DNA from: Gammaproteobacteria bacterium
GTDB taxonomy: Bacteria; Pseudomonadota; Gammaproteobacteria; Steroidobacterales; Steroidobacteraceae
Length of the DNA stretch: 35,305 nt
Assembly: GCA_025355165.1 (NCBI GenBank)
Contig: JANYAD010000137.1
Coordinates: forward strand, 1 to 35,305
Reading direction: 5' to 3'
Below are positions 10,351 to 26,266 of this stretch, one piece after another (the stretch's first letter is position 1; every line of letters begins with the position of its first letter). The notes beneath the pieces were generated by a model. It made no database searches. It was given only the letters and a program-made list of their open reading frames with translations, and was not told the DNA's origin. The position numbers were made by a program, and so were the translations under genes.

Positions 10351-10383
10351 ATGGCAAACCACTTGGGGACGGCTGACACATGA
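10351..10383 (+). CDS. Possible 10-codon leader peptide overlapping the redoxin-PHM start
   Basis: ATG 10351 opens a ten-codon frame (MANHLGTADT) whose TGA (10381-10383) overlaps the ATG of the next gene as ATGA. There is no strong ribosome site, so this may be chance. The exact stop/start overlap would allow translational coupling. Confidence 0.2.
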   Translation: MANHLGTADT

Positions 10384-12504: not shown

Positions 12505-13125
12505 TTGAAGGGATCCGCGCGGGCCGTCGCAGCGGCTTTCATTCTGGTGTTGGGCATGTGCGCATTCTCCGGCGCGCGTGCCCAAGGACTGGCGCGCTTG
12601 CACATCGGTGCCCCCTCCCCGGCCTTCAGTGCACAGGGGGCTGATGGAAAGCTGCACCGGCTACGCGATTACGCCGGGAAAATCGTGCTGTTGGAATGGA
12701 CCAGTCCGGTATGCCCGTTCACGGCGGTTAAATACCAGAACGGCGCAATGCAGGCTTTGCAACGCTACGCTGCAGCGCACGGCATCGTTTGGCTTTCGAT
12801 CGACACGGCCGCACCGGATAAGGTCGGTTACCTAAGCGCCGTTGCCGCGCGTGCGCGTGTGGCTCAGATGGGAGCGATGATTACCGCGTTCCTATTCGAC
12901 GCGGACGGCAGCATCGCGCGCAGCTACGGCGCCAAAACGACGCCCAGTTTTTTCCTCCTCGATCGCAACGGCAAGCTGGCCTACCAGGGGGCAATGGACG
13001 AGCAAATCTTTGCCGATCAGGATACCGGACGCGAATACCTGAAAAGAGCACTGACGGACCTGCTCGCAGGCCGTCGTGTCGCGGATCCGGAAACTCAGCC
13101 CCGGGGCTGCGCGATAGAATACTGA
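12505..13125 (+). CDS. Secreted thioredoxin-fold redoxin (AhpC/TSA-like)
   Basis: About 206 residues with a signal peptide (KGSARAVAAAFILVLGMCAF, cleavage near GARA), then a redoxin domain: IGAPSPAF, LLEWTSPVCPFTAVKY with one conserved-type cysteine in CPF, and TPSFFLLDRNGKLAYQGAMD carrying the cis-proline. A final cysteine is near the C-terminus (RGCAIEY). It lacks the CxxC of thioredoxins. It parallels the N-terminal module of the preceding fusion and probably works with it in the periplasm. The start is uncertain: TTG 12505 keeps the signal peptide but has no ribosome site; an in-frame CTG at 12487 lies five bases after AGGAG. Six bases separate its stop from the TetR-type gene. Confidence 0.82.
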   Translation: MKGSARAVAAAFILVLGMCAFSGARAQGLARLHIGAPSPAFSAQGADGKLHRLRDYAGKIVLLEWTSPVCPFTAVKYQNGAMQALQRYAAAHGIVWLSIDTAAPDKVGYLSAVAARARVAQMGAMITAFLFDADGSIARSYGAKTTPSFFLLDRNGKLAYQGAMDEQIFADQDTGREYLKRALTDLLAGRRVADPETQPRGCAIEY

Positions 13126-13131
13126 GCGCAA

Positions 13132-14397
13132 ATGACAGTGGCCGGAAAAAACACAGCAGCTGCGCGGCGCTCTGATGCCGCGCGAAAATCCCGGCGCGAA
13201 CAGCTGCTTGATGAAGCCGCCCGGGAGCTGAACTCCAAGGGCATTTCCATGACATCCTTGACTGCCGTGGCTGACAAGCTGGGGTTTTCCCGTGCATCGC
13301 TCTATTACTACGTGGAAGATCGCGAGGACCTGATGTTTCAGGTGTACTTACGCTCATCCGAAATCATGGCTCGCCGCTTAGGGGAAGCGGCGCAATCTGC
13401 CGCCAGCGTTCTGCAGGTCGTCGGCAACTTTCTCAGCCTGACCTTGGATCCGAGGGAACCGGAACTCGCGGCCTTGAGCGAGATTGGGCTTTTGGATCAA
13501 GCGGCGCGCGAAACGGTGCTGGGCGTGTTCGAAGCGGTCGTCGCACGGCTTGCCAGTCTGCTTGAGGCGGGTGCAAGAGCAGGCGATATACGCCAATGCG
13601 ATTTTGCCATCGCCGCGCGGACCATTATCAGCATCATCCATTCGATCCCGCTGAACTCTCCCTTGGCTCTCGCGCTGCGGGTAACGCGGCGCGACATCAT
13701 TGCCGCGGCGAAAGACATATTGGCCAATGGCTGGGCTGCCGACAGAGCCGCAGAGGTGAACCCTCCCCCCATCGACTTCGGGCCGCTGCTGACACCTCCC
13801 GGGGGCCTTTTCGATCGCGTCGCCCAATTCGAGGCCAAGCGCGAAAAGATTCTCGCCGCAGCCTCGCAGCTTTTTAACCGGCGGGGTGCGGACACAACTT
13901 CCCTGGACGACATCGCTGCGGCGGTCGGGGCCACCAAGCGGACCCTATATCATTACGTGGGCGACAAACCCACCATTCTCTCCGCCTGCTACGCGCGTAC
14001 TCACCGGATCTTTTCGTTCATTCGCGAGCAAGCCGCCGCGCAGGGCGGCACAGCCGCGGACACCCTCATTGCCGTACTGCGCGCCAACTCGATATCGCAT
14101 CAGCGCGATGATATCGAGCCGCTGCGCTCCTCCACAGGCTACGACTCCTTGAGCGATGAGGAAAAGATTCTCGCTACCGAGCGCGGCAGAGTGTTGGTGC
14201 AGGCGTACCGTGCGCTTTGCAGGGAGGCGCATAGCGAGCGCTCCATGCGAGATGTGAACCGCGATTGCCTGTTGCTCTTCTTGCGCGGCGCCGGCAGCTG
14301 GCTCGCAAAGGGATTGGTCCGCGGGGATGATCAACGCAGAGCGCAGATCGCCGCGCAGATCGCCGAGCTGCTGCGCGTGGGTTTGAGGCCGCTTTAG
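13132..14397 (+). CDS. Tandem TetR-family transcriptional regulator with two DNA-binding domains
   Basis: A 421-residue chain made of two TetR units. The first TetR_N domain covers about residues 21-68 (SMTSLTAVADKLGFSRASLYYYVEDREDL), followed by a helical ligand-type domain to about 205. A proline-rich linker (210-225) leads to the second TetR_N domain at about 238-284 (ADTTSLDDIAAAVGATKRTLYHYVGDK) and a second helical domain. Ordinary TetR proteins are about 200 residues and bind as dimers, so this may act as a single-chain pseudo-dimer. Both recognition helices look intact and differ in sequence. Six bases downstream of the redoxin gene, it is likely the operon's own regulator. It converges on the GH39-like gene. 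Confidence 0.9.
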   Translation: MTVAGKNTAAARRSDAARKSRREQLLDEAARELNSKGISMTSLTAVADKLGFSRASLYYYVEDREDLMFQVYLRSSEIMARRLGEAAQSAASVLQVVGNFLSLTLDPREPELAALSEIGLLDQAARETVLGVFEAVVARLASLLEAGARAGDIRQCDFAIAARTIISIIHSIPLNSPLALALRVTRRDIIAAAKDILANGWAADRAAEVNPPPIDFGPLLTPPGGLFDRVAQFEAKREKILAAASQLFNRRGADTTSLDDIAAAVGATKRTLYHYVGDKPTILSACYARTHRIFSFIREQAAAQGGTAADTLIAVLRANSISHQRDDIEPLRSSTGYDSLSDEEKILATERGRVLVQAYRALCREAHSERSMRDVNRDCLLLFLRGAGSWLAKGLVRGDDQRRAQIAAQIAELLRVGLRPL

Positions 14398-14409: not shown

Positions 14410-15762
14410 TTAATTCGCGCTGATCACGATCAATTCGACGCCGGGCGGCGCAAGCGGTGCCTGCAAATGCAGGCTGGGTCCCATTTGGACACGCTTGTCG
14501 AGCAGCGTGAAATTTGTGCGATCATCGATGCGGTAACGTTTTACCTGGTACTTGCCCGATGACGGCAGATTGATGGTGGCATCGTAGCCCGCGTTGTCGT
14601 GGTACTGCGGCGTGATCCGCTGAGGAAGGCCGGTGTCTGCATTTTTGCGCGGCAGGTAGGTCGGCGCGAGCTGATAATTGCTGATTAAAATTTGCACCAG
14701 CCGCCGATCTTGCGAGCGGCCCGCCGCCAAGGCGAATCCTACGTCATCGCCGCCGGCCGTTCTTATCAATATCGGCGTGCTTTTCAATGCGCCGAAGGCA
14801 GCGAGCGCGTGAGCCACTTCCTCCGGCATTCCCCGTGCATCCGCCGTTTGCGCATCGATGGGCCCGCCCAGCATGTAAATGAGCGCGCTGGTTACAAAAG
14901 CAGCGCGAGCAGCTTTTGACATGTCTTCCGTGGCAGGATCGATGTTCCACTCATCCAAGATGCTCTTGGTCGAACCGGCGCCATGGGCATCGAGTATCTG
15001 CCGAAGCTGCCGCGCGATCGAAACGAAAACGTAAGGATCGTTCGAATCCGCCGCAAAGCAATGCCAGGAAAAGAAATCCAGCGGCAGTCGATTGGCGTGC
15101 ACCACATCAATGAAATTTTCGCGATAGGCCCCGGCCAGCAACGGCTGCGCGAGCGCAGGTCCGCCGACAAGCGCTTCCTCATCCGCGCTCTGAATGGCGC
15201 GAGCGATCTTGTCGTAAAGCGCGTAGTAATCCACGGGCGTGCCGTTCCCAGAGCGCTTCGAATCCGGTTCATTGCCGATTTCCCAATAGCGCACGGCGTA
15301 CTTGAAGCCATTTCCCCAGCCCTTGTTGTAATGCAGTGCCATGTGGCGCGCAATTTGCGCGTATTTTTCAAGCTCCAATGGACTGTCGGCAGGCTCGCCC
15401 GCGAGCCGTAACAAGGGTTCGGCCCCCGCGGTTTTGATCGCGCCGATCAGCCGATCGGTTGGAGCAAAGTTATAGCTGTTCGGGTTGTCGGCTTCGGCAT
15501 TAATATTCGGGAAAATGCTGTCCGCACCCGGCCCGAGCGCGACGTCCAAGTGCACCAAGTCTATGTGTGCAGCCTTATAGAAGGCCGTGCCATCGACGGT
15601 GAAAGCTTGCACGCCGCTGAAGGGACGCAACGCTCCCACTGTGATCGCGGCATCGACGCTGATTTTTCGAAATATCGGCTCCTCGTCCGTTGCACAAACG
15701 GCACCGCTGAGCGCGGACATGATACTCGCCGCGATAGCGACGAGACTCGCTCGCGTAGGCAT
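14410..15762 (-). CDS. Secreted glycoside hydrolase, GH39-like (clan GH-A)
   Basis: 450 residues with a signal peptide (about 1-24, cleavage near VCAT). The body reads as a clan GH-A TIM barrel: the acid/base motif WEIGNEP (Glu165), SWHCF at 232-236, and a candidate nucleophile Glu271 in LDEWN. This pairing matches GH39, which includes beta-xylosidases and alpha-L-iduronidase-type enzymes. A small beta-rich C-terminal part follows (YQVKRYRIDD, then LQAPLAPPGVELIVI). The substrate cannot be told from sequence; it probably cleaves a glycoside in the periplasm. It is the last gene of the island's minus-strand run, 16 bases after the cyclase stop, and 12 bases from the converging TetR stop. Confidence 0.82.
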   Translation of the reverse strand: MPTRASLVAIAASIMSALSGAVCATDEEPIFRKISVDAAITVGALRPFSGVQAFTVDGTAFYKAAHIDLVHLDVALGPGADSIFPNINAEADNPNSYNFAPTDRLIGAIKTAGAEPLLRLAGEPADSPLELEKYAQIARHMALHYNKGWGNGFKYAVRYWEIGNEPDSKRSGNGTPVDYYALYDKIARAIQSADEEALVGGPALAQPLLAGAYRENFIDVVHANRLPLDFFSWHCFAADSNDPYVFVSIARQLRQILDAHGAGSTKSILDEWNIDPATEDMSKAARAAFVTSALIYMLGGPIDAQTADARGMPEEVAHALAAFGALKSTPILIRTAGGDDVGFALAAGRSQDRRLVQILISNYQLAPTYLPRKNADTGLPQRITPQYHDNAGYDATINLPSSGKYQVKRYRIDDRTNFTLLDKRVQMGPSLHLQAPLAPPGVELIVISAN

Positions 15763-15778
15763 CGTTCAGGCGTTCAGG

Positions 15779-16573
15779 TCAGCCGCCGCTCTGGGGTACG
15801 AGCGCCAATACTCGCAACGGACTGCCCGAGCCGTTCACTATTTTGAGCGGAGGCGCGATCACCACAGCGCCGGTCGGGGGCAGTTGGTCTAAGTTCGTGA
15901 GGCTAGCCAGACCGAATCGATTGGCGCCGTGCATGATGGTGTGGCAGGGAAACATTGGGTTGAACGTGGCCGCCTGGCCTGCGTCGGTGCCTACCGTCTC
16001 CACCCCGACACCCAGAATATCGCGCTCGCGCGCGAGAAAAGGCACGCACTCGGGATGAAAGCCCGGGGTGTGAGGTCCGTCCGCGCCAATATTGAGGAAA
16101 GACTCCCCCGGGCGTTTGGACCAATCGGTTCGAATCAGCACCCATGCGCGGCTGGGAATGCGGCCATGGCGCTTCTCCCAGTCCTCGACGATGGCCTGGG
16201 TAAGCAGAAAATCAGCGCTGCCGCGCACCTGCGCGGAGACATCGATGACACACGCAGGACCGATGAAGCGTTCGACGGGAATATTATGGGTCGCGTTATC
16301 CGGATAGTCCTTGCCGGTAACCCAATGGATGGGTGCATCGAAATGCGTGCCGGTATGCTCACCGCAACTGATGTTGTTCCAATACCAGGCCGGTCCGCGT
16401 GAGTCATAGCGCGAGATTTCTTCGAGCGCGAAGGGCTTCGATGGGGCAAATTGTTCCGGCAAGCGGATGGTTTGCGTTGCCGCCTCGAGCGCCACTGTCA
16501 GATCGACGACGCGAATGCCGCCGCGAACAATTCCTTCGACCAGTGCGGCAAGAGCTTGTGCATGAGTGGCCAT
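15779..16573 (-). CDS. Cyclase-family metal-dependent hydrolase (kynurenine-formamidase-like)
   Basis: 264 residues of the cyclase family (PF04199), which includes KynB formamidase, isatin hydrolase and some polyketide cyclases. The metal site is visible: HTGTHFDAPIH at residues 73-83, giving His73, His77 and Asp79 as ligands plus His83. RVVDLTVALE near the start and GVGVETVGTDAG in the C-terminal half are family elements. No signal peptide, so cytosolic. Reactions of this family are hydrolysis of amide, lactam or lactone bonds; no tryptophan 2,3-dioxygenase accompanies it, so I do not assign kynurenine metabolism. ATG 16573 has GAGA six bases upstream. It lies between the CDGSH-cupin and GH39-like genes and is probably cotranscribed. 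Confidence 0.87.
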   Translation of the reverse strand: MATHAQALAALVEGIVRGGIRVVDLTVALEAATQTIRLPEQFAPSKPFALEEISRYDSRGPAWYWNNISCGEHTGTHFDAPIHWVTGKDYPDNATHNIPVERFIGPACVIDVSAQVRGSADFLLTQAIVEDWEKRHGRIPSRAWVLIRTDWSKRPGESFLNIGADGPHTPGFHPECVPFLARERDILGVGVETVGTDAGQAATFNPMFPCHTIMHGANRFGLASLTNLDQLPPTGAVVIAPPLKIVNGSGSPLRVLALVPQSGG

Positions 16574-16600
16574 GTTATTTCTCGTTTTGGGCGAAGCGAT

Positions 16601-17656
16601 CTAGTAGTTGATGGACGGGTTGTCACCTGGATAAATCACCCCTACGATATCAAATCCGCCCGGCGTTGTGCATTGCACTGAATGAAGTTGCTTGCGCGGC
16701 AAAAACAGTACATCGCCCGCGGCCACGCGAGTCTTGGTATGCTGCGTCCATACCACGCCTTCCCCATTGAGAAATATCAACGCCTCTTCATACAAATGGC
16801 GATGCGGTTCCGCCTTGGACAGCGGGATGTTGCCGATGAACTGCGTGACGACCGATGAGCCATGTTCGCGGTTGACCAACATCTGATAATAGCGCTCGGC
16901 CATCTTGTGGCGCTGCAAGGGATCAATCAAGGCCATTCGCTGCGGAAACTGAGAATCAAAATTCACCGGCATCCGATCCATCCACGTCAGATCTTCGCTC
17001 CCCGGCCCGTTCGATATGAACAGCTTGATCGGCACATCGGCGCTATTGTGAATCCGGTAAGCTTCCTCAGGGCGCACATAAATACCGCTCAGCGGTTCGA
17101 CGGCGAAGCGGCGCCCGCCGATTTCTATCTCGCCCGTGCCTCCGGCAATGAACAGCACCGTATGACGGCCATCCGCCGCCAGCACGGGGGAGCTGCCCTG
17201 GCCAACCTCGGCATAGAACTGCGATTGGAACAGCGCGCCTAGGGCGGGCGTGACCACCTGACAGTAGCGCATGGTGCCGCGGGGTATCAATGTCGCCCGG
17301 GCGGTCGAGAACACATAGCAGTTACCGTCTAAGCGGATAACGGGGCCCGCGCCCGGGCCGAGGCTGACCACTTTACCGTTCTCAAAACTATCCGGGTCGT
17401 CCGTCAGATAACCACCTGGCAAGTTGCTATGGGCGCCATCGCAAAACGGTCTGTTCCCCGTCTGCTTGCAGCCGCAAAAAATCACGTCCTCATCGCGCTC
17501 GGCCTTGAATAACACCGGCAAAAAGGCGGTTCCCGCATGCGAACCATCACAGAAGGGCTGAGACTGGGAGCGTCCGCAGCTGCACCAAAGATAGCGCTTG
17601 CCCGCCTTGATTTCCCAATAATAGCCCTTGCGATTTGCAATGGTCGGGGCAGTCAC
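16601..17656 (-). CDS. CDGSH-CDGSH-bicupin fusion protein
   Basis: 351 residues. Two CDGSH iron-sulfur motifs open the protein: Cys25, Cys27, Cys36, His40 (CSCGRSQSQPFCDGSH) and Cys61, Cys63, Cys72, His76 (CGCKQTGNRPFCDGAH), each fitting the C-x-C...C-D-G-x-H pattern that binds one [2Fe-2S] cluster. Two cupin barrels follow. The first (about 120-215) lacks metal ligands. The second (about 265-345) has the complete motif His285, His287, Glu291 and His325, so it probably binds a divalent metal. A redox-active or cluster-regulated cupin enzyme (dioxygenase or isomerase) is inferred. The start is GTG 17656 with GGAG seven bases upstream. It follows the TonB receptor by 24 bases and precedes the cyclase by 27, so it belongs to the same operon. 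Confidence 0.88.
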   Translation of the reverse strand: MTAPTIANRKGYYWEIKAGKRYLWCSCGRSQSQPFCDGSHAGTAFLPVLFKAERDEDVIFCGCKQTGNRPFCDGAHSNLPGGYLTDDPDSFENGKVVSLGPGAGPVIRLDGNCYVFSTARATLIPRGTMRYCQVVTPALGALFQSQFYAEVGQGSSPVLAADGRHTVLFIAGGTGEIEIGGRRFAVEPLSGIYVRPEEAYRIHNSADVPIKLFISNGPGSEDLTWMDRMPVNFDSQFPQRMALIDPLQRHKMAERYYQMLVNREHGSSVVTQFIGNIPLSKAEPHRHLYEEALIFLNGEGVVWTQHTKTRVAAGDVLFLPRKQLHSVQCTTPGGFDIVGVIYPGDNPSINY

Positions 17657-17680
17657 GCAGACACTCCAAAGTCCTTACGA

Positions 17681-20038
17681 CTAAAAATTCCGATTTACAG
17701 TAATGCCGATCGTCCGCGGCCGCACGGTCAGCAACGCCTCAGGATCTTGCGAGGAGTTGATGGCCGACACTTGAGCCCGCTTGTTAGTCAGGTTACGGGC
17801 AAAGGCGGTAATGCTCCACAGGTTATTTTGCACACCCGTGCGCAAATTCACCAAGGTATAGGAGCTTAAAGGGATGTTGAACTGATTCGAGGCGAAATAA
17901 GACTCCACCGCACCGCGATAGTTGGCGTCCGCCGCCACCATGCCGTTCCACGCGGTGTTGATCGGCTGGGTGTAGTTCAGCCCTACATCAACCTGAAATT
18001 TCGGCACATTGGGAATGCTCTCGCCGGTCACGCCCAGGGTCGGGTTTGCCATTTTCTGCGCCATCGTCGCACCCTGGGTGAGATAGGCGTGCTGATAGGA
18101 ACCGGCGATGGTGGCTCTGAAGAATTCAATGGGGCGGGCCCCGATTTCGAATTCCACACCTTTGACTTTCGCAGTTCCTGCATTGCCGGTGTAATTGAAA
18201 GCGCCATCGGCGGTGGTCTCGTTGACCTGTATGTTGTTCCAGCGAATCAAGTACAAGTCGGCTTGGTAGTCGAACATGCCGCCGGCCAATCGACCCTTGG
18301 CGCCGAGTTCAAAGTTGATCAGCGTATCGGGCGAGAAGGACCGCGGGATCGGCTCAAAAGGCTCGCTGACGGCATTCAACCCGCCGCCGCGAAATCCCGT
18401 GGACACGGTTTCGTAAGCCAGGAGACCGTCGCTGACTTTGTAGCTGATGTTCTCCTTCCAGGTAACCTTATTGAATGTCTGCGACGGATCAGCGATCGGA
18501 CCGGGCTGTCCCGAAGGCGGGAAGCCGCCGAAAGGATGCGTCTGCTCCTGTACTCCCTCCAATTTTTCCGTGAAGTAACGCAACCCGCCGGTGGCGGTCA
18601 AGGCGTCGCTCAGTTTCCAGGTGACCTCCCCGAACCCTGCGTATTCGGTCGTGCTCCTATCATCGGTGCGGCCGAAGAATGTGTGACCGACGCCGGGAAA
18701 GTTCAACGCGTCTTGGGAATTTGCACGGCTGAAAGGGCCCGCCGGACGGCCTAAATCATCGGTGGTGATGACGTTCACGATCAGATTATTCGTTTCATAC
18801 TGCCGGTAAACGCCGGCGACAAAATTCACCGGAGAGTCGAGGGCGCTGGCATAGCGCAACTCGCTGGAGTTTAGGTTTCTGGTTTGGGGCTCCATGGATT
18901 CGGCCGGCACCGGCTCCCCGAAGGACACCAGAATCGGGGTTGAATCGAAATTGAAGTTCAGCTTGCGATTGTACTGATTGGTGGTTCCCGTCAGCGTGCC
19001 GCCGGCGAATTTATAGTCGAATTTCAAGCCGTACACCGACAGATTGTCGACCCAGGGGCTTTGGGTCACGTCGGTGTTGCACAAATCGCAGCCAAAGACC
19101 TTCGGGATGGGGTTGGCGCCGGTAACCGGATCGGGCGTCGTTCCCCACGAGGTAATGCCGGCGGGCGTATAGCGCGATGAGCCGTTCGAGGTTTCCCTCT
19201 GGCCGGTGTAGGAGGCCTCGATGTTCAAAGCGTCATTTGGCTGATAGCGCAGCGTGGCTCGCCCGCCTGCTACTTCGTCGTTATTGACACCCTTGATCAG
19301 ACCCACGCTGCCAACTCGGATCTGGTCGATGTAGCCGCCGTCTTTGCTTTGCCATCCCACCAGTCGCAAGGCAAGCATGCCGTCGATGAGTGGCAAATTG
19401 CCGGCGCCGTTGACATTGTAATTGCCGCTGCCGTGCGCAGTAGCCGACCCCTCGACGGAGAGATATCCGCCCATCGAATTCAACTCAGGAGCCTTCGGGA
19501 TGAAGCGGATGGTGCCGCTCATGGAACTCGCACCGTATAGGGTGCCCTGCGGCCCGCGCAACACCTCGATGCGCTCCAAATCATAAAGCCGAATATCCGA
19601 AGTGAAACCACCACCGTCATTGGCATTGGAGCCGCTGATCACCGCTTCGCCGTAGTACAAGCCGATCGTCGAGTCGCCGGTGGAGTTGATACCACGGATC
19701 ACGTATTTCTTATCGCCCGGACCCAGGTCCTGCACTGACAAACCTGGAATGTCCCCGGCGATGTCCATGAACTGAGAGTCGCCCGCGAGCTTCAGTGCAT
19801 CGCCGCTAATGGCTTGAATGGAGGTCGGGATGTCGAGCACGCGCTGGGTGTTTAGCTTGTTGGCGGTCACGACGACTTCGTCCAAACCTGCAGAATTGTT
19901 CGCAACCGCGGTCGCTGTCTGGCCCATAGCGCTCATCGGCAGCTGTATTAATGCGCCCGCGACGCCCACACCGAGCGCGAACATAGCGGCGGACATATCA
20001 AGCTTGCCGGTCAAATATCGCCTAATCGAACCTTTCAT
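17681..20038 (-). CDS. TonB-dependent outer-membrane receptor
   Basis: 785 residues. After a signal sequence (about 1-39) a TonB-box-like DEVVVTA lies at 53-59, then the plug (VLDIPTSIQAISGDAL, YVIRGINSTGD, LRGPQGTLYGASSMSGTIRF) and a long beta-barrel ending in aromatic Phe (GITVNRNF), the usual outer-membrane signal. An exposed loop near residue 316 has a CxxC pair (GCDLC). This SRPI-like plug type imports varied carbon or metal ligands in soil and aquatic proteobacteria, so substrate cannot be assigned. The frame opens at 20083, but ATG 20038 has AGGAG eight bases upstream and begins the signal peptide. A promoter with an internal palindrome lies just upstream, after the MarR gene. Confidence 0.93.
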   Translation of the reverse strand: MKGSIRRYLTGKLDMSAAMFALGVGVAGALIQLPMSAMGQTATAVANNSAGLDEVVVTANKLNTQRVLDIPTSIQAISGDALKLAGDSQFMDIAGDIPGLSVQDLGPGDKKYVIRGINSTGDSTIGLYYGEAVISGSNANDGGGFTSDIRLYDLERIEVLRGPQGTLYGASSMSGTIRFIPKAPELNSMGGYLSVEGSATAHGSGNYNVNGAGNLPLIDGMLALRLVGWQSKDGGYIDQIRVGSVGLIKGVNNDEVAGGRATLRYQPNDALNIEASYTGQRETSNGSSRYTPAGITSWGTTPDPVTGANPIPKVFGCDLCNTDVTQSPWVDNLSVYGLKFDYKFAGGTLTGTTNQYNRKLNFNFDSTPILVSFGEPVPAESMEPQTRNLNSSELRYASALDSPVNFVAGVYRQYETNNLIVNVITTDDLGRPAGPFSRANSQDALNFPGVGHTFFGRTDDRSTTEYAGFGEVTWKLSDALTATGGLRYFTEKLEGVQEQTHPFGGFPPSGQPGPIADPSQTFNKVTWKENISYKVSDGLLAYETVSTGFRGGGLNAVSEPFEPIPRSFSPDTLINFELGAKGRLAGGMFDYQADLYLIRWNNIQVNETTADGAFNYTGNAGTAKVKGVEFEIGARPIEFFRATIAGSYQHAYLTQGATMAQKMANPTLGVTGESIPNVPKFQVDVGLNYTQPINTAWNGMVAADANYRGAVESYFASNQFNIPLSSYTLVNLRTGVQNNLWSITAFARNLTNKRAQVSAINSSQDPEALLTVRPRTIGITVNRNF

Positions 20039-20064
20039 CCGCAATTCTCCTGTCAATTGAGCGA

Positions 20065-20093
20065 ATACAATATGAGTTATCATATGATATCAA
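20065..20093 (-). promoter_or_regulatory. Candidate promoter of the TonB receptor operon
   Basis: On the minus strand TTGATA (plus 20088-20093) and TTGTAT (plus 20065-20070) are spaced 17 bp. The -35 matches four of six positions and the -10 only three. The 12-bp palindrome described separately fills the upstream part of the spacer and overlaps the -35. Confidence 0.4.
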
Positions 20094-20106
20094 ATAAATG
20101 ACTCAT
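20072..20106. promoter_or_regulatory. Operator-like palindrome cluster, candidate MarR site
   Basis: A perfect 12-bp palindrome, TATCATATGATA (20078-20089), overlaps a second one, TGATATCA (20085-20092). Both are enclosed by the inverted pair ATGAGT (20072-20077) and ACTCAT (20101-20106). The site overlaps the candidate receptor promoter and lies 77 bases downstream of the MarR gene. Its TCATAT core recurs in the aminotransferase promoter at 23814-23833. Confidence 0.55.
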
Positions 20107-20182
20107 TGTTGCGCACGGCTTCGCAGAGCGCTTGCGCGGCGCCGGGCCTTTCGGTTCGGTGAAGGCGAGGACTCCCTGGACT

Positions 20183-20671
20183 TCATTCGCTCATATTGCG
20201 GCTGAGGCGCCGGATCAGAATAAATGCCGTGTCAATTTGCGTGGCGGACAACCCGGCCAGCAACCGTTGCTCACGCCGCCGCACGACCGTATTCAAAGAA
20301 TGGAACAGCGCCCGGCCCTTCTCCGTCAGGTACACCTCAACGCAGCGCGCGTCGTCCAGGCGCGGCGTCCGGCGAACCAGATTTTCCTTCTCCATGCGCA
20401 TAAGGGCACGGCTGAGCGCCGATTGCTGCACCATGGCGCGATCGATGATTTCCTTGATGGTGATGCCATCGCCCATGGACAGCACGGCGAGGATGCGCCA
20501 GCGGGTCACGTTGATCCCTTCACGCCTTAATTTCTCGACCAGATCGCCGTTCAGCTGATAGGCAAGCCGCGCAATGAGATGCGGCAGAAAATCGTCGAAC
20601 AAAGGCAGGTCTGCCGGGTTCAGCGCAGCGCTTTCCATGCTTGCGGGGCGTTTTTTCTTTCTTGTCGTCAT
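20183..20671 (-). CDS. MarR family transcriptional regulator
   Basis: 162 residues with the winged-helix MarR layout: N-terminal dimer helix (about 22-50), helix-turn-helix about 62-95 (ITIKEIIDRAMVQQSALSRALMRMEKENLV), the wing with RTPRLDDARCVEVYLTEKGRALF, and a C-terminal dimer helix. MarR proteins usually repress nearby genes and release DNA on binding a small, often aromatic, ligand. ATG 20671 overlaps the dehydratase stop as ATGA (20668-20671), so regulator and enzyme are probably translated together. It sits between the amino-acid enzyme genes and the receptor operon, and palindromes occur in the promoters of both units, which suggests it controls both and itself. Confidence 0.92.
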   Translation of the reverse strand: MTTRKKKRPASMESAALNPADLPLFDDFLPHLIARLAYQLNGDLVEKLRREGINVTRWRILAVLSMGDGITIKEIIDRAMVQQSALSRALMRMEKENLVRRTPRLDDARCVEVYLTEKGRALFHSLNTVVRRREQRLLAGLSATQIDTAFILIRRLSRNMSE

Positions 20672-21648
20672 GAGTCTAATAAAGGGCGTCGCGCGTCGAG
20701 GATGTGGCTCAATCGAGCAGGGTCAATGTTGCCTCCGGAGATTACACAGACGACGTTGCCGCTGCCAACCTGGCCCGACAGCGCCGCAGCCAGCGAAGCA
20801 GCGCCCGCCGCCTCTGCGATGAGGTGATGGCGGACTGCCAGCAGGCGAATGGCGGCGATAATTTGCGCAAGAGACACGCATGCCGGTTGATCGGCTACCT
20901 GCCGCAGCAAAGGCCACATATCTTGAAGCACCGTCGTGCTCCCCATGCCGTCGACGAAACTCTCAAGATGCGACACGGGGACGGGGTGGCCCGCACTGAG
21001 CGCCGCGGCCGCAGGCTGGGCGGCTTCTGACTCGACCACGACCATACGCACTGCCGGCTTGAGACGGCGCATGACTGAACCAATGCCGCATATTAGGCCG
21101 CCGCCCCCGAAGGGCACCGCCACCGCATCGCAGCTCGGCAGATCCTCGAGGATTTCCTCACCAATCGTCGCGTTGCCGGCGAGCACGGCCTGTTCCGCCA
21201 CAGGGTGGATGAACACGCCCTCTTCACCCGAGAGACGGCGGCTGGTCAGCACGTGCCACCATTGGTCAAACGGCAGAGGAATCACCTTCGCCCCCAGTTC
21301 CATGAGGGCGTCGATTTTGTTGCGCGCTGCGCCCTCGGGCACCACCAAGGTGGCGGGAATACCCAGCGCGCGCGCCGCAAAAGCAAGTCCTTGTCCAAAA
21401 TTTCCCGAGCTTGCACTCAGTACGCCTGCTTTAAGACGCGATGAATCGGTGGTTCTGACCGCGTTCACAGCGGCCCGAATTTTGAATGAGCCCCACGGCT
21501 GAAGATTTTCGAGCTTGAGGAAAATGTTGAGGTCGGGGAGATCGACATTCAATTTCAACAGCGGTGTTCGAAGCGCGACGCCGCGAATATTCTCGCGTGC
21601 AACGAGCACCTGCGCGGCGTCCGGCAGCGTCAGGGCGCTAGAAGTCAA
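20668..21648 (-). CDS. Fold-type-II PLP enzyme, threonine/hydroxy-amino-acid dehydratase-like (copy 1)
   Basis: 326 residues of the serine/threonine dehydratase group. The PLP lysine is Lys56 in GSFKIR; the substrate loop is SSGNFGQGL, the phosphate-binding loop FGGGGLICGI and the C-terminal end VISGGNID. No ACT domain, so it resembles catabolic dehydratases and EutB-type enzymes. It lies next to an ornithine-cyclodeaminase-like gene, the pairing seen for EutB-EutC in hydroxyectoine breakdown, but the rest of that pathway is absent. The start is TTG 21648, overlapping the upstream stop by 11 bases, with GCAGG close by; no ATG fits the family N-terminus. It shares several positions with the divergent copy at 23889-24857. 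Probable role: beta-elimination of a hydroxy-amino acid. Confidence 0.87.
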   Translation of the reverse strand: MTSSALTLPDAAQVLVARENIRGVALRTPLLKLNVDLPDLNIFLKLENLQPWGSFKIRAAVNAVRTTDSSRLKAGVLSASSGNFGQGLAFAARALGIPATLVVPEGAARNKIDALMELGAKVIPLPFDQWWHVLTSRRLSGEEGVFIHPVAEQAVLAGNATIGEEILEDLPSCDAVAVPFGGGGLICGIGSVMRRLKPAVRMVVVESEAAQPAAAALSAGHPVPVSHLESFVDGMGSTTVLQDMWPLLRQVADQPACVSLAQIIAAIRLLAVRHHLIAEAAGAASLAAALSGQVGSGNVVCVISGGNIDPARLSHILDARRPLLDS

Positions 21649-22621
21649 TTACCTGCCCTATGCCGGCAGCGCGGGCCTTTTCCAATATGTAGTGCGCTGA
21701 GGCGAGATCCTGCGGCGCAATGCCGAGAGATTTATAAATGGTTATGTCCAGAGGCGAGCATCGTCCTTGCTTCGATCCACTGGCCACCTCCCCGATCTCG
21801 CCCAAGATGTGCTCGGGGGTGATTGCCCCGGCTTTGAGCGCACTTAAGTATTCGCCGCCCTCGTTGTGGGTGGAGTTTCGGCAGTCGACGAAGAACCGCG
21901 CTTTCGCCACTGCTGTGGTATCGACTTCCGCGGCCGTGGCGATGCTCGAGCCGACCAGGTTCAAGTGAACACCCGGTCTTAACCAATCGCCCAGCACAAT
22001 CGGCTCGCGAGCCTTGGTGGTGGTACAAATAATATCGGCGCCATCAATGGCCGCGGCCGGCGTGGCTGCGGTTTCAATGGATAATCGATGTAGGGCGCCT
22101 TGCGTTTGCGCAAACTCTCGCGCCTTATCGGGGCGCCGGGCCCAAACGCGGACTCGTCGCAAAGGGCGCACGCTCAGCATCGCCTCCAGGTGACTACGGG
22201 CCTGCTCGCCGGCCCCCAGCAACGCCAGATCCCCGGCATCAGCCCGAGCCAGCAGCCGTGTCGCGAGGCCGCTCGCGGCAGCGGTGCGGATGGCGGTGAT
22301 TTGCGCGGCGTCCAGCAGCGCGATGGGCTGCCCGTGTTCGGCCTCGAACAGCACAACCAAGCCCAGGTGTGAGGAGTACAGCGGCGGTTTGTTGCGCGGA
22401 ATCAGGCTGATCAGCTTCACGCCAAAGCATTCCGGTTCGGCCAGATATCCCGGCATCACGCCCATCATTCCGCGATCGTCTGGCATGACCACGATCGATC
22501 GCAACGGCAGCACCACGCGCCCTTGCGACACTGCGATCATGGTTCTTTGCATCAAATCGATGCACTCGGCCATGGGCAGAAGTTGACGCACCTCCGCGCC
22601 GCGCAAGATGCGAATTTCCAT
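21638..22621 (-). CDS. Ornithine cyclodeaminase / mu-crystallin family oxidoreductase
   Basis: 327 residues of the OCD/mu-crystallin family, which uses NAD(P) for cyclising deamination or imine reduction. Family marks are VVLPLRSIVVMPDD near 36-50, GVKLISLIPRNKP, the Rossmann loop LALLGAGEQARSHLEAM, and ADIICTTTKAREPI followed by HLNLVGSS. Members include EutC, alanine dehydrogenase, ketimine reductase and iminosuccinate reductase (BhcD), so an imine-reducing step paired with the neighbouring dehydratase is plausible but unproven. ATG 22621 comes one base after the aminotransferase stop, and its own stop overlaps the dehydratase start, so the three genes are tightly coupled. Confidence 0.9.
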   Translation of the reverse strand: MEIRILRGAEVRQLLPMAECIDLMQRTMIAVSQGRVVLPLRSIVVMPDDRGMMGVMPGYLAEPECFGVKLISLIPRNKPPLYSSHLGLVVLFEAEHGQPIALLDAAQITAIRTAAASGLATRLLARADAGDLALLGAGEQARSHLEAMLSVRPLRRVRVWARRPDKAREFAQTQGALHRLSIETAATPAAAIDGADIICTTTKAREPIVLGDWLRPGVHLNLVGSSIATAAEVDTTAVAKARFFVDCRNSTHNEGGEYLSALKAGAITPEHILGEIGEVASGSKQGRCSPLDITIYKSLGIAPQDLASAHYILEKARAAGIGQVIDF

Positions 22622-22622
22622 G

Positions 22623-23774
22623 CTATCCGGGCCCGAAGGAGCCGCGCAGCGCTTTCATGGACGCCACGAAAGCCTCCACGTCGTCCTCATTGTTATAAAA
22701 ATGAAAACTTGCGCGGACATTATCGTCGCGGTGGGAGGTGACGATATCCAGCTTCATCAGCTCGGCAGCGAGCCGCGCAGCGTCGCGTGATGGCACGGCA
22801 ACGGTGGCGCCACGGCGCTCATCTTCGCGCGGCGTGATGCTCGGCCAGCCGATCTCCTCAAGCCTTTGCATACAGCGCCGGGTGAGCGCGTAGTTGCGTT
22901 TTTCGATGCCCGCCGCGCCGATCTTCAAGAGCATTTTCAATCCCGCCTCGGCGGCATAGCAGTTCACCACAGGCGGTGTCCCCGCTTCGAAGCGCCGCGC
23001 GCTCGCCGACGGGCGGTTCGCGGTGATGTCCATGGCGCCAATGTTTGACTGCGCAAACCATCCGCTATTGGTCGGCACCAGGGATTGCACACACGAGGCC
23101 TTGGCATAGAGGAACCCGATGCCCGCGGTGCCCAGCAAGTACTTCAGCATCCCGCCGACCGCAAAGTCGACATCGAGCGCTTTGACATCGATGTCGAGCG
23201 AACCCACCGATTGATAACAGTCGAGCAGCACCTTGGCTCCCTTGGCACGGGCAAGGCGCACGATACCGGGGATGTCGAGCTTTGCGCCATTGCGGAAGCA
23301 TACGTGCGTGATCGCGACCAGCTGTGTCTGTTCATCGATGAGATTTTCAAAAGCCTGCGCCGGGATGTAGCCGTCGGCGGCGCGCGGCACATGAACTACC
23401 CTCGCCCCCCGCGGTTCTTGCGCATGCCAGATTTGCGCGTTGGTGGGAAACTCAAAATCGCTGACCACCACCTTGTTGCGCGTGCCGGTGAACTGCAGAG
23501 CGCTCGCCAAGGAATTCAATCCAGCCGAAACGGACGCGGTGACGGCAATCTCATCCGGAAGGGCACGCAGCAGCGATGCCGTGAGATTGCGTACCGATTC
23601 ATTTTTCATCACCCATACGTCCCAGTTCGCTCCCACCAACAGGCGGTCCTCCATATAGGCATCGAATGCCTCTCTGACCTCGTTAGCGAGCGCACAATAA
23701 GAGCCGCTATTCAAATAGGTCTTTCGCTGCAGAACCGGAAATTCCTTGCGCAGCGCGTCGTAGTTTTGTTCCAT
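22623..23774 (-). CDS. Class V aminotransferase family PLP enzyme (cysteine desulfurase / isopenicillin-N-epimerase-like)
   Basis: 383 residues of fold-type-I PLP enzymes, class V. The Schiff-base lysine is Lys211 in VGGMLKYLLGTAGIGFLY; Asp185 and Gln188 (DCYQSVG) are the usual cofactor contacts and His157 stacks near the ring. The family covers aminotransferases, cysteine desulfurases, kynureninases and epimerases, and sequence alone does not choose among them. It lacks the desulfurase catalytic-loop cysteine in a recognisable context. Start: the frame opens at GTG 23804, but ATG 23774 begins the conserved region with AGGA ten bases upstream. First gene of the enzyme operon, read from a good promoter at 23813-23841. 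Confidence 0.88.
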   Translation of the reverse strand: MEQNYDALRKEFPVLQRKTYLNSGSYCALANEVREAFDAYMEDRLLVGANWDVWVMKNESVRNLTASLLRALPDEIAVTASVSAGLNSLASALQFTGTRNKVVVSDFEFPTNAQIWHAQEPRGARVVHVPRAADGYIPAQAFENLIDEQTQLVAITHVCFRNGAKLDIPGIVRLARAKGAKVLLDCYQSVGSLDIDVKALDVDFAVGGMLKYLLGTAGIGFLYAKASCVQSLVPTNSGWFAQSNIGAMDITANRPSASARRFEAGTPPVVNCYAAEAGLKMLLKIGAAGIEKRNYALTRRCMQRLEEIGWPSITPREDERRGATVAVPSRDAARLAAELMKLDIVTSHRDDNVRASFHFYNNEDDVEAFVASMKALRGSFGPG

Positions 23775-23812
23775 GTATAGGATTTCCTGTTGCAACAAGT
23801 GCACAAAAGAGA

Positions 23813-23841
23813 ATTATATGCACTGTCATATAAACATGCAA
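23813..23841 (-). promoter_or_regulatory. Promoter of the aminotransferase operon
   Basis: On the minus strand TTGCAT (plus 23836-23841) and a perfect TATAAT (plus 23813-23818) are spaced exactly 17 bp. It points at the aminotransferase ATG 38 bases downstream and is the best sigma-70 promoter I see in the window. Confidence 0.7.
23814..23833. promoter_or_regulatory. Inverted repeat operator in the divergent promoter region
   Basis: TTATATG (23814-23820) and CATATAA (23827-23833) form a perfect 7-bp inverted repeat around six bases. It covers the -10 box and most of the spacer of the aminotransferase promoter. On the plus strand it contains TATAAA (23829-23834), a possible -10 for the divergent dehydratase. 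The right half TGTCATATAA matches eight of ten positions of TATCATATGA in the receptor operator. Confidence 0.6.
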
Positions 23842-23888
23842 TTATACGGTGGCGCCGAGCCACGGCGTGACGGCGCGGAGAACGGCAT

Positions 23889-24857
23889 TTGCTCAACGTA
23901 GTAACACCCCCCGGTATGGGGCTGATCGAGGCGGCGCGCCATCGGCTCAACGGATTGAGCATTAACTCTCCCCTGCTCGCGTGCGCTCTGGCGCCGCCGG
24001 GCAAGACGCTTCGGCTAAAACTCGAAAATCTGCAACCTATCGGCTCCTTCAAGATCCGCCCGATCGCAAATGCCGTGCTTGCCAAGAACGCCGCGAGTTT
24101 GAAATCCGGCATTTACACCACCAGTTCGGGCAACAGCGCCCTCGGGGTGGCCTGGATGGCGCGCCGGCTCGGCATCGCTTCAACTGCGGTGGTGCCGGCC
24201 AATGCGCCGCAGGCGAAGCTTGAGAAATTGCGGCGGCTTGGCACTCGCATCGAAACTCGATCCAACGAAGCCTGGTGGCGTGCGATTCAGACCGGCGCGC
24301 TCGAGGAGCAAGAAGGAGTCTATATCGACGCGGTGCGCGATCCTGCCTCCCTGGCGGGAGATGCGACCATCGGAGTCGAGATTCTGGAGCAGTGGCCGGA
24401 TGTCGAAGGCATTTTGGTGCCGTTCGGCGGCGGCGGTCTCGTATGCGGGATCGCCAGCGCGGTGCGCGCGCTCAAGCCGGACGTCAAGATCATCGCCTGC
24501 GAACTGACCAGCGCACGGCCCTTAAGCTGCGCGTTAGCCGCCGGCACCCCTGTCGAGACCTCGCACGAGCCGGGCTTCGTGAGCGGCGTTGGATTCGGTT
24601 CGGTGCTGCCGGAAATGTGGCCGCTGGCGAGGGCGATGATCGATGAGGTCGTTACCGTCTCGCTCGCGCAAGTCGCCGCGGCCATCAAACTGCTGGCGGA
24701 AAATAATCGCATCGTTGCGGAAGGCGCCGGAGCGATCTCCGCGGCAGCGGCGCTGTGGGCGCAGTACACCCCGGCAAAGGTATGCGCGGTGATCTCCGGC
24801 GGTAACATCGACGCCGACATTCTCGCGGCGATTTTAAGGGGAGAGGTGCCGGTTTAA
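23889..24857 (+). CDS. Fold-type-II PLP enzyme, threonine dehydratase-like (copy 2)
   Basis: 322 residues, paralogous in appearance to the dehydratase at 20668-21648. PLP lysine Lys55 in GSFKIR, loop TSSGNSALGV, phosphate loop FGGGGLVCGI, and VISGGNIDADI at the end. Shared details between the copies include a WW pair (DQWWHVL / NEAWWRAI), ATIGxEILE and VSLAQxxAAI. The substrate loop differs (SSGNFGQG against SSGNSALG), which points to different substrates or stereochemistry. The start is TTG 23889 with GGAG eight bases upstream; ATG 23916 is the alternative. Divergent from the aminotransferase operon across the shared operator region and overlapping the permease stop by four bases tail to tail. 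Confidence 0.86.
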   Translation: MLNVVTPPGMGLIEAARHRLNGLSINSPLLACALAPPGKTLRLKLENLQPIGSFKIRPIANAVLAKNAASLKSGIYTTSSGNSALGVAWMARRLGIASTAVVPANAPQAKLEKLRRLGTRIETRSNEAWWRAIQTGALEEQEGVYIDAVRDPASLAGDATIGVEILEQWPDVEGILVPFGGGGLVCGIASAVRALKPDVKIIACELTSARPLSCALAAGTPVETSHEPGFVSGVGFGSVLPEMWPLARAMIDEVVTVSLAQVAAAIKLLAENNRIVAEGAGAISAAAALWAQYTPAKVCAVISGGNIDADILAAILRGEVPV

Positions 24858-26266
24858 CCGGCGTCGATCTTCATCGGGCCTGCCAAGGCAGCGGCGCTGC
24901 GTGCGCGTCGTGCCTTCAGGAAAAAATACACCACTGAAAGCATCAGCAGCCAGGGGATGCCGACGAGCCAGGAGATTTGCCATGTTTCCGTATCGAGTCC
25001 CATGGTGATGAGCACTGCGAAGAGCAGCAGCAAGCCGATAATTTGCACCATGGGAAATCCCGGGGTGCGCACCGGCAATTCTGCGAGCGTATGACGGCGC
25101 CTGAAGCTCAAGTGGCTGAGCAGGATGATGATCCAAACGATCATGGCGTCGAATAGAGCGATGCCGAATAGGTAGTTGTACGCAAGCGGCGTGAGCTTGG
25201 AGAGCCCGGCGGCCACCAGGATACAGGCACCGGATACGAGGATAGCCATGATCGGAGTGCCGTTCTTTCCTAGCCTGCCCAAGAATAGCGGCGCGTAGCC
25301 GCCCCGTGACAGGGAAAACAGCATCCGCGAGCACAGATACACATTGGTATTCATGCTCGAGAGCGCGGCGCTCAATACCACGAAGTTCATAATACCCGCT
25401 GCATGGCGAATGCCTGAATGCGCGAATATGCGCACGAAGGGGCTTTGGGTGACGAGGGTGGCGCCGGTCTCGGTCCAGGGCACGAAAGTGACGACGACGG
25501 TCAGTGCCAAGATATAAAACAGAAACAGCCGCAGCGCCATGCTCCTTAGCGCTGCGGGAATCGAACGCACCGGGTCCTTCGCTTCGCCGGAAGTGACGGC
25601 GATGACTTCGATGCCGTTGAACGACAGGATGCCCAGAATCACCGCCATCCACACGCCGCCGAATCCGTGCGGCATGAACCCGCCCGGAAGGCCGGTAAGA
25701 TTGTGCAAGCCTACCGGCGCAGTTCCCAGTCCGAAAATAGTGGCCGCACCCACGATGATGAAGATGACAATCGCCGACACCTTGATGAGCGCGAACCAGT
25801 ATTCGATAGAACCGAAATTATGCACCGATCGGGAATTGAAATAGAGCAGCGCGAAGGCGAATCCGAGCGACCACATCCACACCGCCGTGCCGGGGAAGTA
25901 GAAGGTCATATAGACCCCGGCCGCCACGGCTTCTGCGCCCACCGCGATGACTTGGCCCATCCAGTAAGAATAGCGGGCCACGATTCCAGCCCACGGATTC
26001 AAATAGATTTCCGCATAGGTACCGAAGGAGCCGGCCGTCGGATGCATCACCGCCATTTCCGACAAGCTGAAGACGATGGCCACGGCCGCCATCGCCGCGA
26101 TCGCATAGCTTAAAATCACCCCAGGGCCCGCATATCCTATCGCTACCCCGCTGCCCATGAATAAGCCGGTGCCTATCGCACCTCCCAAACCGATCATGAT
26201 GAGCTGCGGGCGGGTTAAATCCTTGTGCAGGCCGGCCTCGCGGCTGGCTATGGCGGATGCGTCCAA
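24854..26266 (-). CDS. APC superfamily amino-acid permease
   Basis: 470 residues, about 12 membrane segments, of the amino acid transporter family (GABA/lysine/aromatic permease type). The start DLTRPQLIMIGLGGAIGTGLFMGSG is the hallmark first helix; SFGTYAEIYLNPWAGIVARYSYWM and ILSFNGIEVIAVTSGEAKDP with RSIPAALRS are further family elements. It imports an amino acid across the inner membrane by proton symport; substrate unknown, though its neighbours suggest the compound handled by the island enzymes. The start is TTG 26266 with GAGG six bases upstream; no ATG suits. It ends against the convergent dehydratase with a 4-bp overlap. The 65 bases upstream to the GGDEF gene stop hold no clear promoter. 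Confidence 0.93.
   Translation of the reverse strand: MDASAIASREAGLHKDLTRPQLIMIGLGGAIGTGLFMGSGVAIGYAGPGVILSYAIAAMAAVAIVFSLSEMAVMHPTAGSFGTYAEIYLNPWAGIVARYSYWMGQVIAVGAEAVAAGVYMTFYFPGTAVWMWSLGFAFALLYFNSRSVHNFGSIEYWFALIKVSAIVIFIIVGAATIFGLGTAPVGLHNLTGLPGGFMPHGFGGVWMAVILGILSFNGIEVIAVTSGEAKDPVRSIPAALRSMALRLFLFYILALTVVVTFVPWTETGATLVTQSPFVRIFAHSGIRHAAGIMNFVVLSAALSSMNTNVYLCSRMLFSLSRGGYAPLFLGRLGKNGTPIMAILVSGACILVAAGLSKLTPLAYNYLFGIALFDAMIVWIIILLSHLSFRRRHTLAELPVRTPGFPMVQIIGLLLLFAVLITMGLDTETWQISWLVGIPWLLMLSVVYFFLKARRARSAAALAGPMKIDAG

Follow-up and report, generated by a model that had tools for sequence, protein, structure and literature searches.

We analysed a 35305-base stretch of DNA from a bacterium of the Steroidobacteraceae (Gammaproteobacteria; contig JANYAD010000137.1 of assembly GCA_025355165.1), hereafter called the window. 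The window is a whole contig (C145) of a 4.16 Mb assembly, referred to as G000, and holds at positions 14410-26266 an island of ten genes that a first-pass annotation, made from the sequence alone, had taken for an accessory set that takes up and degrades an amino-acid-derived compound. All ten open reading frames were located there, nine of them on the minus strand, and domain searches confirmed the assigned families, two of which could be refined: the PF04199 hydrolase is an isatin hydrolase by signature, and the class V pyridoxal phosphate (PLP) enzyme, here AT5, is kynureninase-like. The genes are as follows.

14410-15762, minus strand: GH39-family glycosidase with a signal-peptide-like N-terminus (by eye), a local operon addition (PF01229, 40 bits)
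15779-16573, minus strand: isatin hydrolase by signature (PF04199, GLAS type; PDB 5nmp, 350 bits, and motifs)
16601-17656, minus strand: CDGSH-bicupin, with two CDGSH [2Fe-2S]-type motifs and two cupin domains (PF09360, PF07883)
17681-20083, minus strand: TonB-dependent outer-membrane receptor (PF00593, PF07715)
20183-20671, minus strand: MarR-family regulator (PF01047)
20668-21648, minus strand: PALP1, serine racemase/threonine dehydratase-like PLP enzyme, accessory (PF00291)
21638-22621, minus strand: OCD/mu-crystallin-family NAD(P)H reductase or dehydrogenase, accessory (PF02423)
22623-23804, minus strand: AT5, kynureninase-like class V PLP enzyme (KYNU_C over cut-off)
23889-24857, plus strand: PALP2, second dehydratase/racemase-like PLP enzyme, accessory (PF00291)
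24854-26266, minus strand: amino acid permease of the APC superfamily, for inner-membrane uptake (PF00324, 328 bits)

Gaps of 16, 27 and 24 bases separate the GH39, isatin hydrolase, bicupin and TonB receptor genes in that order. MarR and PALP1 overlap by 4 bases and PALP1 and OCD by 11, and a single base lies between OCD and AT5. PALP2 is divergent from AT5, at a distance of 84 bases, and meets the permease gene tail to tail with a 4-base overlap.

Conservation of the island and its predicted isatin hydrolase

Genome contigs were scanned with an alignment of the bicupin, and 80 of 86 relatives were kept as bicupin loci. Seven of these are the same contigs as genomes in our set of relatives, and L170, L172, L176, L182 and L183 repeat L066, L080, L065, L089 and L081, respectively. 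Genes were counted in each locus by tblastn with reference proteins. Many stretches end at contig ends, so the counts are lower bounds; matches of any identity overcount (receptor 38 against 33 at ≥36% identity, hydroxylase 10 against 8 at ≥50%, SDR 16 against 10 at ≥40%, enoyl-CoA hydratase (ECH) 11 against 8 at ≥60%, MarR 8 against 6 at ≥60%). AT5 occurs in 36 of the 80 loci, the TonB receptor in 33 (≥36% identity), the permease in 32, the subunits of an indolepyruvate-oxidoreductase-type enzyme, IORb and IORa, in 20 and 17, and the isatin hydrolase in 13. Further genes are a second class V protein and a TetR regulator near the bicupin (20 each), an NSS transporter and an amidohydrolase (13 each), a secreted cyclase-like protein and a kynureninase-family protein (12 each), and caprolactamase-type subunits (10 each). 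At the stricter identity, SDR was counted in 10 loci, the hydroxylase and ECH in 8 each and MarR in 6; PALP1, a PrnB-like gene and thioesterase relatives were found in 5 each, and a RidA-type gene, PALP2 and OCD in 4 each. AT5 or a kynureninase-family protein is present in 47 of the 80 loci.

A core consisting of the bicupin, AT5, permease, TonB receptor and isatin hydrolase recurs in Gamma- and Alphaproteobacteria, and to this extent the idea of an accessory uptake and breakdown island holds. The full ten-gene set is local, because five or more of the ten genes (≥35% identity), the joint occurrence named as a check in the first-pass annotation, lie together in only 7 of the 80 loci; in 27, the bicupin is the only one of the ten within the available stretch. 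What is conserved suggests breakdown of an indolic amino acid via isatin, which is absent from the earlier proposal.

The PF04199 protein scored 263-350 bits against isatin hydrolases of solved structure (best 5nmp, 350) versus 24-30 bits against bacterial kynurenine formamidases (best 4cog, 30). It holds the manganese motif HTGTHFDAPIH as well as GLAS and WYW. The signatures described for isatin hydrolases include a Mn site HxG[TA]HxDxPxH, GLAS or GLQC, and a WxW pocket (PMC6117287), and all three motifs were present in 11 of 11 long orthologue matches, the matches at 2 of the 13 loci being shorter and left unscored. A kynurenine formamidase was rejected on these motifs and on the score against TIGR03035 (36.6 bits, cut-off 223.05). 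The assignment to the isatin hydrolase family is strong, and the protein is predicted to convert isatin to isatinate. A relative of this protein with a signal-peptide-like start (cyclase2) was seen at or near the bicupin in L030 (about 9006-9983) and 11 other loci; the Mn motif and GLAS/GLQC occur in 0 of these 12, and HxGTQxGPPxH stands at the Mn site in 9.

Ten loci hold both the isatin hydrolase and the IORa gene; in 8 of them the two share a strand and are separated by 7-30 bases. In G000, IORb exceeds the cut-off of the indolepyruvate-oxidoreductase-beta family (615 versus 348 bits), and IORa falls far below that of TIGR03336, the indolepyruvate ferredoxin oxidoreductase alpha subunit (268.6 versus 650.9 bits), so that another 2-oxo acid is the likely substrate of IORab. 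Isatinate is an aryl 2-oxo acid, and an IOR-type enzyme acting after isatin hydrolase would therefore yield 2-aminobenzoyl-CoA. The IORb-IORa pair of G000 is on contig C94, and a hydroxylase-SDR-MarR-ECH run reaches the end of contig C130. This hydroxylase passes NF006101 (bifunctional salicylyl-CoA 5-hydroxylase/oxidoreductase; 1179.6 versus 1078 bits); judging from its setting and from homology, 2-aminobenzoyl-CoA may be its substrate. Within the 15 lower-operon loci, to which the search for a CoA ligase was confined, an AMP-binding pattern was absent from open frames of more than 350 codons; the signature was one pattern, matched by a single positive control (L141).

The same genes stand together elsewhere. 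L081 has the order acyl-CoA dehydrogenase-ECH-MarR-SDR-hydroxylase, isatin hydrolase-IORa-IORb and TetR-bicupin-TonB receptor-permease-AT5-AT5b-cyclase2. L071 and L106 are similar, a single stretch holding isatin hydrolase-IORa-IORb and the hydroxylase operon along with the bicupin, receptor, permease and AT5 genes, and L069 resembles L081 as far as the permease, where its stretch ends. In a comparison of 60 relatives (bicupin and isatin hydrolase at E <1e-90, hydroxylase at E <1e-250, IORb at E <1e-50), all 8 genomes with a full-length bicupin have IORb, isatin hydrolase and a full-length hydroxylase. Among the relatives without a full-length bicupin, the isatin hydrolase was found in G002, G014 and G015, the hydroxylase in these three and in G016, G020 and G022, and IORb in G002, G009, G015, G016 and G020, with a fragment in G006.

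Other lineages may use a different hydrolase. Ten bicupin loci carry a caprolactamase-type lactamase, nine of them together with a kynureninase-family protein, and AT5 and isatin hydrolase were each found in none of the ten (for isatin hydrolase absence alone, p 0.2). IaaCE, of the same lactamase family, is proposed to open 2-oxindoleacetate (PMC8453981). Caprolactamase and kynureninase-family protein standing in for isatin hydrolase and AT5 would fit a substrate with an indole lactam and an amino-acid side chain. Paired amidohydrolase-family genes, perhaps peptidases or acylases releasing the amino acid, were observed beside the bicupin in L065, L066, L068, L080, L091, L100, L174 and L175.

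AT5, the CDGSH-bicupin and their partners across genomes

AT5 passes the KYNU_C cut-off (32.4 versus 27 bits) and lies under the cut-off of all 24 NCBIfam families that it matched. A 36-row AT5 profile shares with kynureninase 1qz9 the PLP lysine (K-Y-L), SGWF and EPS segments; the lysine, the Tyr following it and GW are invariant in all 36 rows. The top-scoring chain, 4w91, was deposited as an aminotransferase (156 bits; 1qz9, 142.5). An aminotransferase was ruled out by the cut-offs and the loop, and a cysteine desulfurase by the SufS score (TIGR01979, 153.7 versus 475.1 bits) and by a loop shorter than the Cys-bearing loop of the SufS chains compared. AT5 is kynureninase-like and a putative lyase cleaving a side-chain C-C bond.

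Across genomes, AT5 tracks a heme protein. Of 74 genomes, 32 have AT5, and 30 of these carry a PrnB-like gene, against 4 of the 42 without AT5; in G000 the PrnB-like gene lies on contig C190. The two AT5 genomes without it are G010 and G131. The island of G010 holds a TDO-like gene (L015, 11865-12656; 92 bits to Pfam TDO), and a full TDO is encoded elsewhere in that genome. The PrnB-like gene adjoins AT5 in L162 and L168 and is one permease gene away in L163 and L164. These loci come from four of the seven AT5-positive, bicupin-negative genomes (the L168 protein being AT5-like at 32%), and these four have no bicupin, isatin hydrolase or IORb. PrnB, MarE, TDO and IDO form one heme superfamily; MarE converts a methyltryptophan to a 2-oxindole, and a complex of PrnB with tryptophan is known (PMC11904535, PMC12921851). 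This superfamily chemistry makes tryptophan or a closely related derivative the most likely amino acid. One study reportedly concerns hydroxytryptophan formation, with a relation to PF08933.

Amino acid transporters of two unrelated types together occupy 45 of the 80 loci, the permease in 32 and the NSS transporter in 13 others, never both. The NSS transporter of a bicupin locus scored 286 bits against 4us3, which we take to be MhsT with tryptophan bound, and 131 bits against the next chains.

In the bicupin, the C-x-C...C...H motif occurs twice in 46 of 46 rows having the CDGSH domain (the first His in 45 of 46). One complete cupin site of the 3His-1Glu type (H285, H287, E291, H325) is present in 47 of 47 rows, and the same 47-row alignment has no invariant His in the first cupin. 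The bicupin may be an oxygenase that carries its own redox domain and acts on an indole or oxindole ring. We also observed two tandem CDGSH-bicupin matches followed by IORa and IORb in L107 (from 10001), a metagenome-assembled genome of the Parvularculaceae.

The bicupin was found in 37 of 311 genomes of the order. For comparison, 37 genomes were drawn by handle number out of the 274 negatives, keeping to the same genera and family (13 of genus g1, 20 of g33 and 4 others); the positives G062, G076 and G058 are partial, G058 lacking the CDGSH part, and Fisher values are uncorrected for relatedness. IORb is present in 32 bicupin-positive versus 3 negative genomes, isatin hydrolase in 31 versus 1, AT5 in 25 versus 7 and the PrnB-like gene in 25 versus 9. 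TDO, included as a control, was discarded as a bicupin partner, showing no positive association (23 of 37 versus 35 of 37). Isatin hydrolase and IORb occur together in 32 of the 74 genomes, IORb alone in 3, the hydrolase alone in none and neither in 39. The 35 genomes of genus g33 show exact agreement between bicupin, isatin hydrolase and IORb (15/15 versus 0/20), and in the same genus AT5 and the PrnB-like gene are both present in 18, AT5 only in 1, the PrnB-like gene only in 2 and neither in 14. Over the 74 genomes, phi was 0.84 for AT5 and the PrnB-like gene, 0.82 for bicupin and isatin hydrolase, and 0.49 for AT5 and bicupin. By this pattern the genes look like two modules, heme oxygenase with AT5, and bicupin with isatin hydrolase and IOR.

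A proposed route through isatin and its alternatives

Our tentative interpretation, to which we give a little less than an even chance, is that the island serves the catabolism, via isatin, of tryptophan or some other indolic amino acid. The amino acid would enter through the TonB receptor and the permease, and its indole would be oxygenated by the PrnB-type heme enzyme encoded on C190, or in G010 by the TDO-like protein. AT5 could then take off the amino-acid side chain as a three-carbon fragment, and the CDGSH-bicupin could oxidise the resulting oxindole-type ring at C3 to give isatin, the least certain step. AT5 is placed before the bicupin because AT5 and the PrnB-like gene occur without bicupin and isatin hydrolase, and bicupin and isatin hydrolase without AT5. 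Isatin would be opened to isatinate by the isatin hydrolase, and isatinate converted to 2-aminobenzoyl-CoA by IORab, a thiamine pyrophosphate enzyme, as the arrangement of the operons suggests, no CoA ligase having been seen in the lower-operon loci; the C130 salicylyl-/2-aminobenzoyl-CoA-type hydroxylase/reductase and beta-oxidation-type enzymes would finish the ring. That this whole succession, from heme oxygenation and AT5-type cleavage through the bicupin, isatin and isatinate to 2-aminobenzoyl-CoA, is a new aerobic route, with the bicupin as a new Fe-S/cupin-fused type of oxygenase, is possible and somewhat more doubtful. In a literature search that reached few subscription journals, we found no known pathway with the full gene set, as the first-pass annotation had also held, none in which a tryptophan pathway unites isatin hydrolase with a kynureninase-like enzyme and 2-aminobenzoyl-CoA, and no work on a CDGSH-cupin protein; the one paper mentioning both CDGSH and cupin was, judging from its abstract, on another subject.

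Several observations weigh against this interpretation. The hydroxylase passes a family named for salicylyl-CoA, not 2-aminobenzoyl-CoA. AT5 fails the kynureninase model TIGR01814 (95.5 versus 246.4 bits); the Tyr before the PLP lysine is important in kynureninase, and the AT5 residue at this position is Leu in 26 of 36 rows and Tyr in only 2, so that its substrate probably differs from kynurenine. The PrnB-like gene lies within the stretch of only 5 of the 80 bicupin loci. G000 also encodes TDO (C76) and kynureninase (C148), and tryptophan therefore probably has another route there. The eight genomes of g26 (examples are L175 of G068 and L094 of G047) have bicupin and IORb, with isatin hydrolase in 7, and no AT5, PrnB-like gene, TDO or over-cut-off kynureninase; isatin in this genus must have another origin, and a universal requirement for AT5 or kynureninase is contradicted. 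At the thresholds used, the bicupin genomes G074, G076, G058, G253 and G280 have no IORb, and six bicupin-positive genomes have no isatin hydrolase. Conversely, G001, G007 (weak AT5), G132, G141, G142 and G146 have AT5 and the PrnB-like gene and, at the same thresholds, no isatin hydrolase, IORb or bicupin, so that the AT5 product need not lead to isatin.

The main rival reverses the order of the two central enzymes: the bicupin would act first, turning the amino acid into dioxindolylalanine, which AT5 would split by a retro-aldol reaction straight into isatin and alanine. Kynureninase performs retro-aldol chemistry, a single lyase step would supply the isatin hydrolase directly, and AT5 and the bicupin share one stretch in 36 of the 80 loci. 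The results of the PrnB-like search demoted this order, since AT5 tracks the PrnB-like gene more closely than the bicupin, the bicupin tracks isatin hydrolase, and six genomes have AT5 and the PrnB-like gene without a bicupin; we regard it as unlikely. Less likely again is a pathway for indoleacetate, as in the iad locus, or for indole or oxindole, with the amino acid genes incidental and IORab acting on indolepyruvate. Such a pathway would accommodate g26, where bicupin, IORb and isatin hydrolase occur without any lyase searched for, and the thioesterase relatives of 5 loci, and iad loci do have IOR-like subunits and pass through isatin (PMC9613470). It leaves aside the amino acid transporters of 45 loci and the AT5 or kynureninase-family proteins of 47, and it is at odds with the position of IORab after isatin hydrolase in operons and with the low IORa score against the indolepyruvate oxidoreductase alpha family.

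Three of the enzyme types match the upper kynurenine pathway by fold, and G021 has 3-HAO, kynureninase-type and FAD-monooxygenase genes beside the bicupin. A cupin-based variant of that pathway, in which the bicupin gives N-formylkynurenine, the PF04199 protein is the formamidase and AT5 the kynureninase, with anthranilate as product, nevertheless seems improbable. The PF04199 protein scored 36.6 versus 223 bits for arylformamidase yet bears isatin hydrolase signatures, IORab would have no role, no ligase for aminobenzoyl-CoA is visible in the lower-operon loci, and all 21 of the bicupin genomes that the 74 include from the window's family already have TDO. The scheme first put forward for the island, namely deglycosylation followed by elimination from a hydroxy amino acid, reduction of the imine and transamination, which would imply a substrate other than an indole, is very improbable. 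The genes that it calls for are present, the GH39 gene lies 16 bases behind isatin hydrolase, and the Woeseiaceae locus L066 has two PALP genes near the bicupin and AT5. Across the 80 loci, however, GH39 occurs in 0, OCD in 4, PALP1 in 5 and PALP2 in 4, which speaks against initial sugar removal and against elimination and imine reduction as the core, and AT5 is by sequence not an aminotransferase.

Bacterial tryptophan breakdown is usually drawn via kynurenine, indole or indole-3-acetate. If the proposed isatin route is correct, a further tryptophan route would reach 2-aminobenzoyl-CoA without a CoA ligase, isatin hydrolases would gain a role beyond auxin and indole breakdown, and the recurrent CDGSH-bicupin fusion would receive a first function. 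Enzyme assays become feasible in named strains with bicupin loci, among them Pelagerythrobacter aerophilus Ery1 (L100) and the environmental strain Sphingomonas sp. dw_22 (L068), whose loci each combine bicupin, AT5, isatin hydrolase and IORab.

Accessory genes, flanks and known systems

The best solved relative of the GH39 protein is 5z3k, a "glucosidase" (199 bits). As it is not conserved, GH39 was set aside as a pathway member; lying directly behind isatin hydrolase, it may extend the substrates to a glycosylated one, in this species alone. PALP1 is closest to serine racemase 3hmk (166 bits), and PALP2 to threonine dehydratase 8y1j (144 bits) and serine racemase 5cvc (141 bits). Both align with serine racemases and have Ser at the position of racemase Ser84, so that either could act as a racemase or dehydratase on a by-product or isomer. 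The OCD protein is under the cut-off of all 13 NCBIfam families that it matched. Two known systems were rejected for these genes, the beta-hydroxyaspartate (Bhc) cycle (BhcA 24.7 versus 650 bits; BhcB 172.3 versus 550 for PALP1, 154 for PALP2; BhcD 155.6 versus 500) and hydroxyectoine EutBC (EutB 210.6 versus 413 for PALP1, 193.1 for PALP2; EutC 214.6 versus 471.65). The OCD and both PALP genes are confined to particular lineages, and their products may act on the amino-acid by-product or on isomers; the Woeseiaceae locus L066, on the same contig as L170, also has two PALP genes near the bicupin and AT5.

The island lies, as had been described, between genes that look ordinary. To its left are mfd (by eye), genes of the redoxin type and a regulator with tandem TetR domains; to its right are a GGDEF protein, nagZ and rlmD, named by eye. 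Its GC content is 0.57-0.63 without a step, so composition shows no sign of recent foreign origin, and ARAGORN detected no tRNA in the window. In the congener G010 the same flanks surround permease, PALP2, AT5, OCD, PALP1, MarR, bicupin and isatin hydrolase; this island has the additional TDO-like gene and lacks the TonB receptor and GH39. The regulator (13132-14397, plus strand) has 421 residues and two tandem TetR N-terminal domains (PF00440, two stretches), and is 85% conserved at the same position in G010. The gene at 10380-12461 (plus strand) encodes a fusion protein in which a redoxin domain is joined by a Cu2-monooxygenase-C-type domain and by EF-hand motifs, with CxxCH seen by eye; a second redoxin follows at 12505-13125, and both are conserved in G010.

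Among known systems, the Bhc cycle and EutBC resemble the island in pairing a dehydratase-like with an OCD-like protein, but the window's proteins are below their equivalog cut-offs. With the kynurenine pathway the island shares a kynureninase-like PLP enzyme linked to a TDO/IDO-type heme oxygenase; it differs in that neither AT5 nor the PF04199 protein reaches the equivalog cut-off and that TDO and kynureninase are encoded elsewhere in the genome. In the anaerobic indoleacetate pathway, the family of IaaCE is that of the caprolactamase-type subunits of 10 of the 80 bicupin loci; this lactamase is not part of the window's island and could at most be an isatin hydrolase analogue in other lineages. 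The aerobic 2-aminobenzoyl-CoA pathway has a possible counterpart in the hydroxylase/reductase of the window's genome that exceeds the cut-off of NF006101, a family named for salicylyl-CoA; in relatives it is accompanied by genes for SDR, enoyl-CoA hydratase and acyl-CoA dehydrogenase and by RidA-type genes. The lower-operon loci show no CoA ligase signature, isatin hydrolase and IORab being proposed instead. The iad locus of Variovorax and Bradyrhizobium leads from indole-3-acetate via isatin to anthranilate (PMC9613470, PMC12633357), and a 2025 preprint revises its early steps (PMC12633357). No Rieske oxygenase of the IadCDE type is among the ten island genes, the island being the extent of that search. 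As described in these sources, the iad locus has in common with the island the isatin intermediate, an amidase annotated as kynurenine formamidase, MarR and IOR-like subunits (PMC9613470, PMC12633357). The island differs from it in its amino acid transporters, AT5 and the CDGSH-bicupin, and in the proposed lower route to 2-aminobenzoyl-CoA.

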